A stretch of DNA of 64,000 bases, from assembly GCA_028690215.1 (NCBI GenBank), contig JAQVBQ010000002.1, positions 1 through 64,000 on the forward strand. Reading direction: 5' to 3'. Source of the stretch: Bacteroidales bacterium (GTDB lineage: Bacteria; Bacteroidota; Bacteroidia; Bacteroidales; UBA932). Under the pieces are notes generated by a model that was given only the letters and a program-made list of their open reading frames with translations, ran no database searches and had not been told where the DNA came from. This document shows, one piece after another, positions 11,425-16,789 of this stretch; positions within the stretch are counted from its first letter, which is position 1; the number at the start of each line of letters is the position of its first letter. The position numbers were made by a program, and so were the translations under genes.

Positions 11425-11454
11425 TTTGAGATTCTTGACCTTATCATACTTTTG
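11425..11454 (+). promoter_or_regulatory. Promoter of the 11.46-kb small RNA
   Basis: TTTG (11425-11428), an 18-bp spacer and TACTTTTG (11447-11454). The expected transcription start falls at about 11459-11461, right at the base of the long RNA stem. Confidence 0.7.
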
Positions 11455-11459
11455 CCTCT

Positions 11460-11566
11460 GAAGGGGGCCACAATGTGCGGGAGAATGGTCTTTTGAGGGT
11501 GAGACCTGTGGGGTTCGGTTTTTTCATAGTCTTTAAGTTATAGATGTCTAAGGCCCCCTTTTTTTA
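11460..11566 (+). ncRNA. Structured small RNA, candidate 6S (6S-Flavo type) RNA
   Basis: About 107 nt between a consensus promoter and a T-run. The 5' end AAGGGGGCC (11461-11469) pairs perfectly with GGCCCCCTT (11552-11560), so the closing stem is also the terminator stem. Inside, GGTCT and AGACC form a hairpin extended by GAAT/GTTC and opened by asymmetric loops, while the 3' side (about 11526-11551) would be largely unpaired. A closed terminal stem, a central bubble and an apical hairpin are the layout of 6S RNA, which binds RNA polymerase by mimicking an open promoter. The size suits the Bacteroidota 6S-Flavo class. No long ORF is present. I could not run a covariance search, so the class is a proposal; an uncharacterised sRNA is the alternative. 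Confidence 0.6.
11552..11566 (+). terminator. 3' arm and T-run of the small RNA
   Basis: GGCCCCC followed by seven T residues. The other arm of the stem lies about 90 bases upstream at the RNA 5' end, so the terminator forms only when the whole RNA folds back on itself. Confidence 0.6.
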
Positions 11567-11619: not shown

Positions 11620-13680
11620 ATGAGGAGGTCGGTAAAGATAAGACAACAGGATATCAGTGATTGCGGAGCTGCATCTCTGGCATCTGTCGCTGCCTTTCAC
11701 GGGCTGATATTTCCTGTTGCAAGACTGAGGATATACAGTGGGACCAATACTGAGGGTACCACAATAGCAGGTATCATAAGTGCTGCAGAAATCATCGGAT
11801 TGTCAGCCAAAGGGTACAAAGGTAAAATCAGCTCTTTGTACAAAATTCCCAAGCCTGCCATACTCCATTTTAAAAAGCCTGACGGCTCCCTCCATTTTGT
11901 TGTATTATATCGGATAAGCCGGAGGGGGGCACATATCATGGATCCGGCAGAGGGGCGGATAAAACGGATTAAGATTGATGAGCTTGGTCAATTGTGGACC
12001 GGTTATCTTATAGTGGTCACGCCTGACAGCTCATTCACCAAGGGGCGCATTGGGACTCCGCCTCTGAAAAGGATCTGGAAGTTGTTCCGGAGTAAAATTC
12101 CGCTATACTTCAAAGCTCTCATTTCGTCTATACTCTTTGTTCTGGTTTCAATCAGCATCTCTTTTATGATTAAGTATCTCATAGACACGGCCATTCCTGC
12201 CGGAGACAACGCTCTTGTCACCAGGACGGCTGTCACAATGCTTGGTCTTACACTGCTCTCTTTTTTGCTCTATACACACAGATCGAGGATTCTTCTGAAA
12301 CTTAATGTTATAACCAATAATGACCTTATCAACTCATTTGTCTCAAAGTTGTTCTCGCTCCCTCACTCCTACATTGAGAGCAGACGGACAGGTGAGGTTA
12401 CTTCGAGGGTTGATGATGCCTTCAAGGTTGGCGGAATGATCTCAGAGGTGATGATAAACCTCTCTATGAATGTTCTGACGCTGCTCTTTTCTCTGGCAGC
12501 CCTACTCTGGATCGATTGGAAAATATCACTGCTGATAGTTGCGTTTATTCCGGTCTATGCAATCTTGTACTATATCTGTGACCGTTTTAACAAAGAGATC
12601 CGAAGCAGGATAATGGAAAATGGGGCAAAGTTTGAAAGCACCCTCATTGAGGGAATCAAAGGGACCCTGACTATCAAATATTTTGGAATCGAGCAGGAGA
12701 CTTCGGCAAAAATCAGGGAGCATCTCTCTGAGCTGAACAACTCAATCATAAAGGCGGGAAAGTGGGGCATAGTACTATCCGGAGCAACAGATATCAATTC
12801 GAAATTCATGTCACTGGCAACTCTGTGGGCGGGGAGTTTTTTCATACTCTCAGGTACACTTACCCTGGGTGAACTGATACTTTTCTATACCATGACGGCT
12901 CTTTTCTCCTCCCCCATCGCCGGCCTTCTGGGGTTAAACACCACATACAGGGAGGGTCTGGCGGCGGCCGAGAGGTTGTTCGAGGCGATGGATCTGGAGA
13001 GTGAACCCTACAATGAGGGAATAACTCCAGACATGACAATGGAAGAGCTTAGGGTTGAGAATCTGAAATTCGGTTATCCAGGCAGAAAGGAGATATTTGA
13101 AAATTTCAGTATGACTCTTAAAGCCGGCAAGATTACAGCGCTATGCGGAGAGAGCGGCTGCGGTAAGAGTACAATAGCCTCCCTGTTGATGAGGATTTTG
13201 AAAGCTGAACCGGGAGCCATATCTGTAAATGGAATTGACATAAATAATATAAACCTTCAGCTCTGGAGAGAGTGGATTACAATCGTACCTCAGAACCCCT
13301 CCCTCCTCTCGGGGAGTATCTGCCGCAACATTGCACCGGGAGAGGAGGAGCCCGATATGGATACAATTCTGGAGTTATGTCGTGAACTGGGGTTGATGGA
13401 GTTCATCCGGAAGTTGCCCTCAGGCTTCGACACTATACTTGGCGAGGATGGATCCCGGCTCTCAAGAGGCCAGCAACAGCGAATTGCCTTTGCCAGGGCA
13501 CTTTACCGTCATCCTCGTATTCTTCTGCTGGACGAGGTGACATCCTCATGTGACAGTGAATCTGGAAGTTTGATTAAAAAGGCTATAGTGAAAGAGAGAG
13601 ACAAAGGGTGTATGATTCTACTTATCTCTCACAGCAAAGAGGAGTTGGAAATTGCGGACGAAACAGTGAAAATCAGATAA
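11620..13680 (+). CDS. Peptidase-containing ABC transporter (C39 family), 686 aa
   Basis: Exporter that cuts double-glycine leader peptides and pumps the mature peptide across the inner membrane. The C39 cysteine-protease domain (residues 1-140) has its catalytic Cys15 in QQDISDCGAAS, His92 in LHFVVLY and Asp108 in IMDPAEG. A six-span transmembrane domain covers about 155-430. The ATPase has Walker A GESGCGKST (about 510-518), signature LSRGQQQR (about 614), Walker B ILLLDEVTSS and the H-loop ISH. All parts are intact. Two small ORFs with GG leaders follow at once and are the obvious substrates; TolC and an adaptor come next. It is therefore the core of a bacteriocin-type export cassette. ATG 11620 follows the small RNA by 54 bases. 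Confidence 0.95.
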   Translation: MRRSVKIRQQDISDCGAASLASVAAFHGLIFPVARLRIYSGTNTEGTTIAGIISAAEIIGLSAKGYKGKISSLYKIPKPAILHFKKPDGSLHFVVLYRISRRGAHIMDPAEGRIKRIKIDELGQLWTGYLIVVTPDSSFTKGRIGTPPLKRIWKLFRSKIPLYFKALISSILFVLVSISISFMIKYLIDTAIPAGDNALVTRTAVTMLGLTLLSFLLYTHRSRILLKLNVITNNDLINSFVSKLFSLPHSYIESRRTGEVTSRVDDAFKVGGMISEVMINLSMNVLTLLFSLAALLWIDWKISLLIVAFIPVYAILYYICDRFNKEIRSRIMENGAKFESTLIEGIKGTLTIKYFGIEQETSAKIREHLSELNNSIIKAGKWGIVLSGATDINSKFMSLATLWAGSFFILSGTLTLGELILFYTMTALFSSPIAGLLGLNTTYREGLAAAERLFEAMDLESEPYNEGITPDMTMEELRVENLKFGYPGRKEIFENFSMTLKAGKITALCGESGCGKSTIASLLMRILKAEPGAISVNGIDINNINLQLWREWITIVPQNPSLLSGSICRNIAPGEEEPDMDTILELCRELGLMEFIRKLPSGFDTILGEDGSRLSRGQQQRIAFARALYRHPRILLLDEVTSSCDSESGSLIKKAIVKERDKGCMILLISHSKEELEIADETVKIR

Positions 13681-13704
13681 GGAGGGTGCACACTCCGGGT
13701 GAAA

Positions 13705-13726
13705 CCCGCTCACCATTTTCAGCGGG
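13705..13726 (+). other. Hairpin between the transporter and peptide genes
   Basis: CCCGCT (13705-13710) and AGCGGG (13721-13726) form a perfect 6-bp stem with a 10-nt loop and no following T-run. It could be a processing or stability element that raises peptide mRNA over transporter mRNA. It is short enough to be chance. Confidence 0.3.
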
Positions 13727-13745
13727 AAATCAAAAATTTTATGCC

Positions 13746-13934
13746 ATGAAAGAGTTTGTAGAAAGAGAGTGGGGAGTTGAGACTCTTGATGATGAATCTC
13801 TGCAGTTACAGGGTGGCCTGACTTACAGAGAGTTTATGAATCTGATGGAAAAGGCTGCTGCTTTGGCTAAAGAACTGGAAAAATACTGGCCTCGATTCCG
13901 TAGAGGATTCGTAGCCGGATGGAGGGCTGCATGA
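13746..13934 (+). CDS. Double-glycine leader peptide 1 (putative two-peptide bacteriocin subunit), 62 aa
   Basis: A small ORF 65 bases after the C39 transporter. Its first 24 residues end in LDDESLQLQGG, a double-glycine leader with Glu at -8 and Leu at -4 and -6. Cleavage after GG would release a 38-residue peptide beginning LTYREFMNLMEK. The mature part counts to about net +4, is likely an amphipathic helix in its first half, and has a Trp/Arg-rich end containing a GxxxG motif (GFVAG). The stop TGA overlaps the start of the next peptide gene as ATGA, so the two are translationally coupled. It matches no family I can name. A signalling peptide is the main alternative to a bacteriocin. Confidence 0.75.
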   Translation: MKEFVEREWGVETLDDESLQLQGGLTYREFMNLMEKAAALAKELEKYWPRFRRGFVAGWRAA

Positions 13935-14152
13935 TGGAAGCATTTGTCTTTGAAAGTGATTCAATCATTCTTCTGAACAATGAGGAGAATATTGCTGTTA
14001 TCGGTGGTGCCGAACAAGGGTGGGACTACGATCTGGCCGAGTATATAGGCAAAGGGGTCGGATATAGTGCAAAGAAGTTGTGGAAACTGATCAAATTAAT
14101 GAGTGCCAACATCTACTCTATGAGTTCCAATCCTAAGCTGCTTTATCAATAA
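13931..14152 (+). CDS. Double-glycine leader peptide 2 (putative two-peptide bacteriocin subunit), 73 aa
   Basis: Overlaps peptide 1 by four bases (ATGA). The 26-residue leader ends LNNEENIAVIGG, a very good double-glycine leader (Leu -12, Glu -8, Val -4). The predicted mature peptide is 47 residues, starts AEQGWDYDLAEY, and contains GKGVG (a GxxxG motif) followed by a cationic Lys/Trp/Leu helix (KKLWKLIKL); net charge is about +2. Paired GG-leader peptides with GxxxG motifs in one operon define class IIb bacteriocins, whose two helices pack through those motifs in the target membrane. ATG 13934 is an alternative start. No homologue is known to me. Confidence 0.78.
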   Translation: MMEAFVFESDSIILLNNEENIAVIGGAEQGWDYDLAEYIGKGVGYSAKKLWKLIKLMSANIYSMSSNPKLLYQ

Positions 14153-14201
14153 CTGATGCAACTTAAAGTATCTAACCGGGTGTTTGTTAAGGAAAAAGTA
14201 A

Positions 14202-14209
14202 TATATTTG
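14202..14209 (+). promoter_or_regulatory. -7 box just before tolC
   Basis: TATATTTG matches TAnnTTTG exactly and ends 6 bases before ATG 14216. The nearest TTTG (14183-14186) leaves only 15 bp, short of the usual 19, so this is a possible internal promoter that would give a nearly leaderless tolC mRNA. Confidence 0.4.
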
Positions 14210-14215
14210 TCGATT

Positions 14216-15535
14216 ATGAAAATTTTCTACAAACTCCCGGTTTTGTTCCTCCTTATTATCCCGGTCTCCCTCTCTGCACAGAAGAGCTGGAGTCTGGAGG
14301 AGTGCATCAAATATGCATGGGATAACAATCTGACTGTCAAACAGAAAGAGATATCCGTCTACCAAAGCAAGAACAATGTGCTGCAGTCCAAAATGGATTA
14401 CATTCCATCGGTGAATGCTTCACTCTCTCACAGTATGAACTGGGGGCGTTCGGTGAATATGCAGGATCTTGAGATTATCGAAAACAAGCTATCTCAGAGC
14501 ACAAGTGCCTCTTTGAATGCTTCGATCAACCTTTTCGAGGGGTTCCAGAAAACAAATACACTAAAGAGTAAGAAGGTCATTCAGGAGATGTCCGAGCTGG
14601 AGGTAACCAGAATAAAGAATCAATTGGCATTGCAGATTTCCAAAGGTTATCTGGAGGTTATGCTGGCAAAGGAGATATTGCAGACTGCAAAGCAAAACCT
14701 TGCAAGCATCGAGGAACAGGTTGCGAGAACCGGCAAACTGGTTGATGCCGGAAGTGTTGCATACAGTTCGCTTTTGGAGATGAAATCACAACTTGCAGCA
14801 GAGAGGGTTCAGATGGTCTCGGCACAGAATCAGGTAAGATCTGCACTGCTCAATCTAAAGCAACTTCTTGACCTGTCAAACGATACAAATTTCGAGATTG
14901 AGACACCGGATCTTGGTGTTATGGTATCTGAATTCCATGGAGAGCCTGTCGATAATCTATACAATAGGTCTAAAAATCTTCCCGAAATAAAGAGTGCTGC
15001 ACTCAATTTCAAAAATTCACAGCTTCAACTCTCAATTGCAAAGGGTGCCAGCTACCCTTCTATCAGTTTTTCTGCAGGCTACGGGACATATTACAGTGAC
15101 CAGAGAGAGGAGCTGATTATGGACCAGTTCAATGACAACAGAAACCCATCTATCACATTCGGTCTGAGAATCCCTATTTTCAACAACTGGCAGACTAACA
15201 CATCCATAAGGAACGCCCGTCTTGGCGTCAGGAGTGCGGAAATTGATGTCAGGACTGCCGAACAGACACTTTACAAAGAGATTCAGCAGGCGAACAACGA
15301 TGCTCTCGCCTATTTTGAGAAATATAAGGCCGGAATTGACAATGTCAAGTCAATGGAGGAGTCGTTCAGATATGTACAGCAGAAGTTTGAGATAGGAATT
15401 CTCAATGCAACTGATTATACAGTGGCAAAGACCAATCTTTTCAAAGCTATGTCAGAACTCTCACAGGCTAAATACCAGTTCGTATTTCAGCTTAAGGTGC
15501 TAGATTATTATAAAGGACTGCCAATCACTCTCTAA
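14216..15535 (+). CDS. TolC family outer-membrane efflux protein, 439 aa
   Basis: Outer-membrane channel subunit of a tripartite exporter. A signal peptide (about residues 1-20, ending SLSAQ) precedes KSWSLEECIKYAWDNN, the typical TolC-family start, and two long alpha-helical repeats follow (about 25-215 and 235-439). I start at ATG 14216 because the signal peptide begins there; the frame continues upstream to 14156 without family similarity. It lies 63 bases after peptide 2 and 12 before the adaptor gene. Together with the C39 transporter it would complete a path to the cell exterior, though TolC-adaptor pairs also serve drug efflux. Confidence 0.93.
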   Translation: MKIFYKLPVLFLLIIPVSLSAQKSWSLEECIKYAWDNNLTVKQKEISVYQSKNNVLQSKMDYIPSVNASLSHSMNWGRSVNMQDLEIIENKLSQSTSASLNASINLFEGFQKTNTLKSKKVIQEMSELEVTRIKNQLALQISKGYLEVMLAKEILQTAKQNLASIEEQVARTGKLVDAGSVAYSSLLEMKSQLAAERVQMVSAQNQVRSALLNLKQLLDLSNDTNFEIETPDLGVMVSEFHGEPVDNLYNRSKNLPEIKSAALNFKNSQLQLSIAKGASYPSISFSAGYGTYYSDQREELIMDQFNDNRNPSITFGLRIPIFNNWQTNTSIRNARLGVRSAEIDVRTAEQTLYKEIQQANNDALAYFEKYKAGIDNVKSMEESFRYVQQKFEIGILNATDYTVAKTNLFKAMSELSQAKYQFVFQLKVLDYYKGLPITL

Positions 15536-15547
15536 TATACAAATGTG

Positions 15548-16789
15548 ATGAAGAACAAGAAGAAAACATGGATAATAATTATCGCGGTTGTGGTTATCAT
15601 TATCCTCATAATTGCAGGAATAACAGGTAAAAAAGACAGCACACCGGTAACTGCAGAGAAGATTAAACTGAACAACATAACCGAGGTGATTCCTGCCAAT
15701 GGAAAGATCCAGCCTGTGATTGAGGTGAAGATCAGCCCCGATGTCTCTGGAGAGATTGTCGAGCTGAATTTCAAAGAGGGCGATAAGGTGAAGAGAGGTG
15801 ATCTGATTATTAAAATCAAGCAGGATGTCTATATTTCGGTAAAGGAGAGGGCTGAGGCATCTCTCAATGCCACAAAGGCTCAGCTTGACCAGCAGCTGGC
15901 ACAATTCACCCAGACTGAGGCAAATTTCGAGCGTAATAAGAAGCTCTACGAGCAGAAGGCAATTTCCGAAAAAGAGTATGAGGATGCTCTCTCTCAATAT
16001 GAGGTTGCAAAGGAGCAGATTAAGGCCGCCAGATTCAATGTCCGCAGCTATGATGCTGCTCTTAAGGAGGCAAATGAGAATCTGTACAAAACAAACATAT
16101 ATGCCCCTATGGATGGCATTATTTCCAAACTGAGCGTTGAAAAGGGTGAAAGGGTTGTCGGCACAAGTCAGATGGCAGGTACCGAGATGCTGAGAATTGC
16201 CAACTTCAACGAGATGGAGGTGCTTGTCGATGTCAATGAGAATGATATTATCCGCATAAAGGACAACGATACTGCAATTATTGAGGTTGATGCCTACCCT
16301 AACAGGAAATTCACAGGGGTTGTCACTCAGATAGCCAACTCAGCAAAGAATATTGGCGCTACTACTGATCAGGTGACAAATTTCGAGGTTAAAGTCCTTG
16401 TCCTGCCTGAGTCATACGCAGACCTCATGAACGAAGGGAAAAATCCTTTCAGGCCCGGTATGTCTGCATCTGTTTCAATTCAGACTGCAACTAGAAATAG
16501 TGTTCTTACAGTGCCTATCCAATCGATTACAACCAGAAGTGACCTTCTCTCCGACTCTGTGAAAAAGAGTCTGACCGTGAATGAGTCTGTTGAGAATGTA
16601 TTTGTAGTCACAGGGGATACTCTACAGGTAAGAAAAATCACTACTGGCATCCAGGATCTTAACAATATTGAGGTTCTTACAGGACTTAAAGAGGGTGAGA
16701 TGGTTGTTACAGGTCCGTTTTCAGGGATAAGTAAGACACTGAAGAGCGGCACAAAAGTAACAGTAGAAGATCCTAAAAAGAAAAAATAA
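15548..16789 (+). CDS. HlyD/MacA-type periplasmic adaptor, 413 aa
   Basis: Membrane-fusion protein joining an inner-membrane pump to TolC. An N-terminal membrane anchor (about residues 7-25) is followed by a lipoyl/barrel-sandwich half (VSGEIVELNFKEGDKVKRGD), a coiled-coil hairpin (about 95-185), the second lipoyl half (IYAPMDGIISKLSVEKGERV) and beta-barrel domains with a Lys-rich end. It resembles MacA-like adaptors, yet no MacB-type transporter gene lies beside it, so the C39 transporter upstream may be its pump. A GTG three bases earlier is an alternative start. The tsaB gene follows 9 bases later, so it is probably cotranscribed. Confidence 0.92.
   Translation: MKNKKKTWIIIIAVVVIIILIIAGITGKKDSTPVTAEKIKLNNITEVIPANGKIQPVIEVKISPDVSGEIVELNFKEGDKVKRGDLIIKIKQDVYISVKERAEASLNATKAQLDQQLAQFTQTEANFERNKKLYEQKAISEKEYEDALSQYEVAKEQIKAARFNVRSYDAALKEANENLYKTNIYAPMDGIISKLSVEKGERVVGTSQMAGTEMLRIANFNEMEVLVDVNENDIIRIKDNDTAIIEVDAYPNRKFTGVVTQIANSAKNIGATTDQVTNFEVKVLVLPESYADLMNEGKNPFRPGMSASVSIQTATRNSVLTVPIQSITTRSDLLSDSVKKSLTVNESVENVFVVTGDTLQVRKITTGIQDLNNIEVLTGLKEGEMVVTGPFSGISKTLKSGTKVTVEDPKKKK

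Follow-up and report, generated by a model that had tools for sequence, protein, structure and literature searches.

The window analysed here, bases 1-64000 of a 127.9-kb contig from a 2.65-Mb Bacteroidales assembly, contains a gene for an ATP-binding cassette (ABC) exporter with a C39 peptidase domain and, directly behind it, two small genes, pep1 and pep2, each encoding a peptide with a double-glycine (GG) leader and a GxxxG motif. We consider it somewhat better than an even call that these genes form a two-peptide secretion cassette of a new Gram-negative, class IIb-like family, probably with an antagonistic function. The parts of this proposal differ in strength. Judged by their sequences, pep1 and pep2 are real genes, cutting at the GG and export are very likely, and joint action via GxxxG appears well supported by evolution; killing is what we infer from the likeness to class IIb bacteriocins and from a CPBP-type partner gene. 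The genes of the operon are the following:

11620..13680, + strand: C39-peptidase ABC exporter, 686 amino acids (aa), from open reading frame (ORF), Pfam and orthologue alignment
13746..13934, + strand: pep1, 62 aa, with a 24-aa GG leader, a 38-aa mature part and GxxxG at residues 54-58
13931..14152, + strand: pep2, 73 aa, with a GG leader, a 47-aa mature part and GxxxG at residues 40-44
14156..15535, + strand: TolC-type outer-membrane channel (tolC), Pfam OEP at 165.6 bits, above cut-off, in the same slot throughout the genus
15545..16789, + strand: periplasmic adaptor of the RND/MacA type (mfp), NCBIfam RND_mfp at 181.4 bits (cut-off 94.9), Pfam HlyD_D23, and synteny

A previous, sequence-only reading of this DNA had described two GG-leader ORFs within 66 bases of the transporter, and this description was borne out: pep1 starts 65 bases past the ABC stop codon and overlaps pep2 as ATGA. 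In both window peptides the leader ends in GG (LQGG in pep1, VIGG in pep2), with Glu at -8 and a hydrophobic Leu/Val at -4, as had been stated. The mature lengths of 38 and 47 residues and the presence of one GxxxG per peptide (GFVAG in pep1, GKGVG in pep2) likewise agree with the earlier description, and both mature peptides contain 0 Cys. The further claim that the ATGA overlap fixes the ratio of the two products stands only as far as the overlap itself is concerned. An overlap of 1 or 4 bases is found in 25/25 genus-level pairs (window counted), but it is missing in L082, a locus of another genus, and in many other loci of the family, so that fixed-ratio coupling is not general. AlphaFold models, calculated for single chains only (predicted local distance difference test scores of 65 and 63), place low-confidence helices around the motifs (residues 27-47 and 51-61 of pep1, 31-65 of pep2).

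Within the genus both peptides are strictly retained. In a search of 60 relatives, own genome included, pep2 is present in 24/24 same-genus genomes (E 8e-39 to 2e-8) and convincing in 1/11 genomes from other genera of the family (G035). Both peptide genes sit between the ABC gene and tolC in all 24 same-genus genomes. When 26 pairs (window, 24 genus members and L082) are aligned, the GG of pep1 and the second G of pep2 are invariant, and the first G of pep2 is kept in at least 90%. The pooled ratio of nonsynonymous to synonymous polymorphism (pN/pS), determined for 18 pairs hand-chosen among close relatives, is 0.20 for pep1 and 0.21 for pep2. As grounds for giving up the proposal, the sequence-only reading had named frames or GG leaders that are not conserved in relatives, or a noncoding pattern of substitution; what we found is conservation in 24/24 genomes and a pN/pS of about 0.2. 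Hosts are named for 23 loci, including the closed genome of Bacteroidales bacterium CF (CP006772), whose pep1 is 95% identical; the other named members are metagenome-assembled genomes titled Bacteroidales, Bacteroidetes, Bacteroidia or Rikenellaceae.

The pair extends well beyond the genus. An ABC homologue at E <=1e-100 is found in 151/249 genomes, a sample of the larger family, and for 60 of these matches the downstream region was read (L128, L166 and L171 being shortened by contig ends). The pair is present in 48/60 regions; in 47 of them tolC or tsaB follows, and in L128 the contig ends first. The remaining 12/60 are too short or represent different C39 loci. The pair is also carried by L082 and by five additional loci of the family (L074, L080, L084, L085, L089). 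Two adjacent GG-leader peptide genes are hence found in 24/24 genus genomes and in 53 further family loci, with the pep2 leader ending in AG instead of GG in two loci of genus g45 (L147 and L149). In other genera of the family the same slot holds a strongly diverged pair. Across 44 aligned diverged pairs, a hand-picked subset, the invariant residues are glycines only, namely G24, G54 and G58 of pep1 and G25, G26 and G44 of pep2, that is, the cut site and the GxxxG motif. For a quantitative comparison 76 pairs were thinned to 51 at 75% similarity, leaving out L147, L149 and L156. In this non-redundant set pep1 shows GxxxG in 51/51 pairs (11.8 expected from residue shuffles), and pep2 shows [GA]xxxG in 51/51 (24.5 expected) and strict GxxxG in 42/51 (12.6 expected). 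Co-occurrence beside C39 transporters in other Bacteroidales, a check proposed with the sequence-only reading, is seen across genera of the same family. In an order-wide sample of 295 genomes from 183 genera, taken from a larger order and searched at a profile threshold of 0.001 at which distant pairs may be missed, pep1 and pep2 occur together in 3 genomes only, all of the same family.

Some matches lie outside this pattern. The A6 profile matches in G039, G368 and G370 were rejected, as they are not small peptides but frames of >330 residues. L199 (G045, from another family) has a frame of 133 codons with the pep1-like FIxxFIHGFREGYKAG at its end, after AGG; no exporter was recognised there among the long frames. 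G090 carries three related C39 exporters (contigs C65, C89 and C129), only one of which (L176) is accompanied by a pep pair, and in L073, L076, L083, L092 and L093 a related ABC gene lies elsewhere and lacks the pair.

The exporter itself is intact by its residues. Peptidase_C39, ABC_membrane and ABC_tran all score above the Pfam cut-off, and 28/28 aligned orthologues share, without change, Q9, C15, H92, D108, the Walker A residues G/G/G-K-S-T, LS-x-G, the D-E of Walker B and the His of the H-loop. The intact C39 ABC transporter that had been described is confirmed by these catalytic and ATPase residues. With regard to the extent of the cassette, exporter and pair had been recognised correctly; the adjacent tolC and adaptor genes and an RNA pseudoknot were missing from that account. 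The gene order in the genus is ileS(-) cvpA ABC pep1 pep2 tolC mfp tsaB tlpA(-), part of it masked by contig ends in 4 assemblies; the last gene, across the strand, is one we provisionally name tlpA. From synteny and from what is known of the protein families, pep1 and pep2 would be synthesised with their GG leaders, cleaved by the C39 domain during ABC export and passed across the envelope via the adjacent adaptor and TolC-type channel. Outside the cell, the short helices may pair through their GxxxG/AxxxG faces and jointly hit the target membrane in the manner of class IIb bacteriocins. The C39 region of the exporter finds further matches in the window's own genome (G000), at C18:1295-2983 and C131:4624-4980.

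Between exporter and peptides lies a predicted RNA element, whose second part is an H-type pseudoknot that is family-wide, previously unrecorded and without Rfam counterpart:

13681..13696, + strand: short hairpin GGAG/CTCC around a palindromic core, opening the RNA element
13698..13726, + strand: H-type pseudoknot, S1 13698-13702/13710-13714, S2 13705-13709/13722-13726

We searched the 67 bases 5' of pep1 in 76 loci and compared them with dinucleotide shuffles and two control stretches. The mean pseudoknot score is -19.4 vs -1.8 for the shuffles and -1.8 and -3.1 for the controls; 59/76 loci outscore all 30 shuffles, and 11/76 show no pseudoknot. After L159 and L085, whose pseudoknots lie elsewhere in the stretch, had been dropped from 65 hits, the pseudoknot is at the expected place in 63/76 loci, formed by 44 different S2 helices that end 12-29 nucleotides before the ATG. 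In alignment A3 (41 sequences) 79.5% of the cells are paired vs 33-46% in slid versions, and there are 69 double changes vs 20 in shuffles, a count to which related, non-independent sequences contribute. S1 is 67% paired in A3, and two of the five measures are less striking (pair types, 22 vs 19.6; pairs with a double change, 8 vs 4.9); S1 is undercounted here because A3 shifts some rows by one column. With strict filters, a covariance model gives one strong match per genome, at the pep operon, in 25/25 genus genomes, and no convincing second copy in these genomes. The matches at the operon arise partly by construction, because many of these loci were used to build the model. The R1 match in G047 (E 0.005) was rejected as chance; it lies in a coding region in another family without the pep operon. 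Rfam, queried up to E 5, returned no match at the element; at gathering score it gave only a tRNA for the whole window and nothing for 14 loci. The hairpin 5' of the pseudoknot is weakly above shuffles (25/56 loci), with perfect palindromes in 20/56. Since the pseudoknot falls after the exporter stop and before the peptides, it probably uncouples expression of the peptides from that of the exporter, with differential expression or mRNA processing as the likeliest modes.

A candidate for self-protection is encoded in one sister genus, g45. In 6/6 loci read (an ABC match is listed for 12 g45 genomes) a protein of 235-246 aa is encoded between pep2 and tolC; all six proteins match PF02517 (Rce1-like/CPBP) above cut-off (2e-13 to 4e-16) and contain EExx[FY]R. 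PF02517 is a common family, found in 11/14 control genomes. At class II bacteriocin loci, CAAX/Abi proteins are regarded as probable immunity factors, with protection shown for one (PMC10059821). Where the CPBP/Abi protein is encoded, it would provide self-protection; in the window's genus self-protection may be unlinked, derive from the outer membrane or be absent. A missing immunity gene is compatible with an antibacterial role, because bacteroidetocin producers inhibit themselves (PMC6671954). CvpA was considered as immunity partner and rejected; L084 and L085 keep cvpA with ileS and not with the ABC gene. At another C39 locus, L167 of g41 (790-1736 in oriented coordinates), two GG ORFs with GxxxG in each are followed by a PF02517 protein (1.6e-6). 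Also in oriented coordinates, and by eye only, L172 (from 1222) and L175 (from 1061) show GG-type peptide ORFs and then a CPBP protein. A fuller version of our proposal would be a core, family-wide, Gram-negative class IIb-like pair with its own outer-membrane export genes, under RNA-level control by the unrecorded pseudoknot, in which self-protection differs, being CPBP in one genus and not linked in the window's; to this version we give a little less than even credence.

Compared with known class IIb bacteriocins (lactococcin G, plantaricin EF and JK), for which the GxxxG rule is described in PMC8538875, the cassette shares two adjacent small GG-leader ORFs by a C39 exporter, predicted helices (low-confidence models) that enclose GxxxG or a GxxxG-like motif in both peptides and, in one genus, a CPBP/Abi protein next to the pair. 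It differs in its Gram-negative host, its tolC and adaptor genes and its place in the core genome; moreover, no immunity gene is linked to it within the window's genus, and it shows no significant sequence similarity. The window peptides have no Pfam match, NCBIfam offers nothing better than a chance match (pep1, E 0.16), and PDB profile searches with the peptides gave chance matches only. Among 26 members per peptide, NCBIfam lactococcin G-beta matches 2/26 pep1 (E 0.017 and 0.065) and G-alpha 1/26 pep2 (E 0.082), all far below the cut-offs. Significant homology to lactococcin G was rejected, as unrelated families score alike and the pep1 match (residues 14-42) is partly leader, and the resemblance is a hint at most. 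We call the pair class IIb-like and do not file it as a member, because its operon carries no immunity gene within the window's genus, the homology matches are weak and the antibacterial activity is a predicted one.

Three systems of Gram-negative bacteria come close in part. Cdz of Caulobacter crescentus consists of two small glycine-zipper proteins, CdzC and CdzD, both required to kill and exported by a type I system (PMC5380434); two small proteins of a Gram-negative with glycine motifs are common to both, whereas Cdz has RTX-like export signals, extended glycine zippers and the immunity protein CdzI, and the present loci have GG leaders throughout, export via a C39 protein and, in the window, a single GxxxG stretch in each peptide. 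Bacteroidetocins likewise come from Bacteroidales, have GG leaders and use an ABC exporter with a double-glycine peptidase (PMC6671954), but they are single peptides with at least 2 Cys, accompanied by a transmembrane protein and mostly a thiol oxidoreductase, and patchy in distribution. Membership was rejected, as we find a pair and not a single peptide, and mature window peptides without Cys. With regard to a transmembrane protein and a thiol oxidoreductase, the window's neighbours are cvpA, tolC, mfp, tsaB and the gene provisionally named tlpA. EbfG1-4/PteB of Synechococcus elongatus are likewise small GG-motif proteins with C39 export in a Gram-negative, but they are four, serve biofilm, and paired GxxxG is not part of their description in the text at hand (PMC4997328). 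In a literature search that covered neither subscription journals nor preprints, no title or abstract describes a two-peptide GG cassette in Bacteroidales. PMC10352776, PMC7616364 and PMC4573289 treat GG/C39 clusters of other kinds from Bacteroidales/Bacteroidetes, or only name bacteroidetocins and CdzCD. A rumen survey (PMC13289728) reports 21 predicted unmodified two-component clusters by a rule of the same kind as ours (two ORFs <100 aa with AxxxA, GxxxG or SxxxS); its partial list of hosts names Streptococcus and Lactiplantibacillus, and it may include a member of the present family.

Several observations weigh against an antibacterial pair. A dedicated immunity gene beside the peptides is found neither in the window's operon nor in its genus, the two PF02517 genes of the window genome are both on other contigs, and CPBP proteins can serve other roles. 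Pfam and NCBIfam scans revealed no significant similarity to any bacteriocin family. The mature peptides had been called net cationic, which holds for the window (K+R-D-E of +4 for pep1 and +2 for pep2) but not for pep1 of the family, whose mean charge over the 51 non-redundant pairs is +0.4, near zero. The adaptor is RND/MacA-like and not of the HlyD type, and in five g38 loci (L117-L120, L122) ABC, pep1 and pep2 are followed by tsaB with no tolC or mfp between, so that their outer-membrane parts must lie elsewhere or have been lost. Moreover, a weapon would be expected to be patchy and under diversifying selection, whereas the cassette is core, conserved and vertically inherited. Hence, the earlier claim of a new two-component antibacterial pair is upheld in part: the conserved GG/GxxxG pair by a C39 exporter, the lack of a library family and the CPBP/Abi gene in one sister genus speak for it, whereas the window's operon has no immunity gene, the locus is core and the antibacterial activity comes by inference.

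The main rival, which we regard as unlikely but well worth weighing, is that the peptides are a conserved signal or structural secretion product, such as a pheromone or matrix/biofilm peptides like EbfG1-4, and not a weapon. It stays alive because of core inheritance and purifying selection, which tell against antagonism, and it would sit well with an operon that lacks an immunity gene; GG/C39 proteins serving biofilm provide a precedent (PMC4997328). However, the named neighbours include no recognisable gene for a kinase, regulator or receptor, and paired GxxxG motifs together with the CPBP neighbour in g45 fit class IIb biology. That the peptides serve the producer's own envelope, inserted in or associated with its export or efflux machinery and never released, is improbable: the peptide genes do lie between ABC and tolC-mfp in a fixed operon, and GxxxG also packs helices within membrane proteins, but peptides with GG leaders next to an intact C39 domain are expected to be cleaved and exported, and the five g38 loci hold the pair without adjoining tolC and mfp. 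Chance open frames, which shortness and the lack of a curated-family match might suggest, have next to no standing and are refuted by protein-level conservation in 24/24 genus genomes, synteny, a pN/pS of about 0.2 and motifs that are invariant family-wide. GxxxG two-peptide bacteriocins in the literature covered are Gram-positive, Cdz of Caulobacter excepted. A GG/C39 pair that belongs to the core genome across a large Bacteroidales family would mean widespread antagonism or peptide communication in anaerobic communities. The many diverged pairs offer material for studying GxxxG partner recognition, and the pseudoknot is a compact, testable regulatory RNA candidate.

Two further features precede the exporter gene:

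11447..11454, + strand: candidate promoter-like TAnnTTTG box (TACTTTTG), upstream of the leader, from sequence only
11461..11566, + strand: candidate leader/attenuator with a terminator-like outer stem of 9 bp and a T-run; its end lies 53 bases 5' of the ABC start

TAnnTTTG is what we take to be a Bacteroidales promoter box, and boxes resembling it were noticed by eye in L058 and L059. The leader has no Rfam match. By a strict criterion, a stem with T-run ahead of the ABC gene occurs in 8/23 loci (0.5 expected from mononucleotide shuffles), which suggests a candidate attenuator or small RNA. Finally, L160, L161, L162, L166 and L172 carry another type of C39 exporter, with a protein of about 110-120 aa encoded just past the ABC stop. 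This protein has a helix-turn-helix-like N-terminus (several such models in L162, all below cut-off; judged by eye at the other loci) and a tail that contains GG, which raises the question of whether it could be a regulator fused to an exported peptide.

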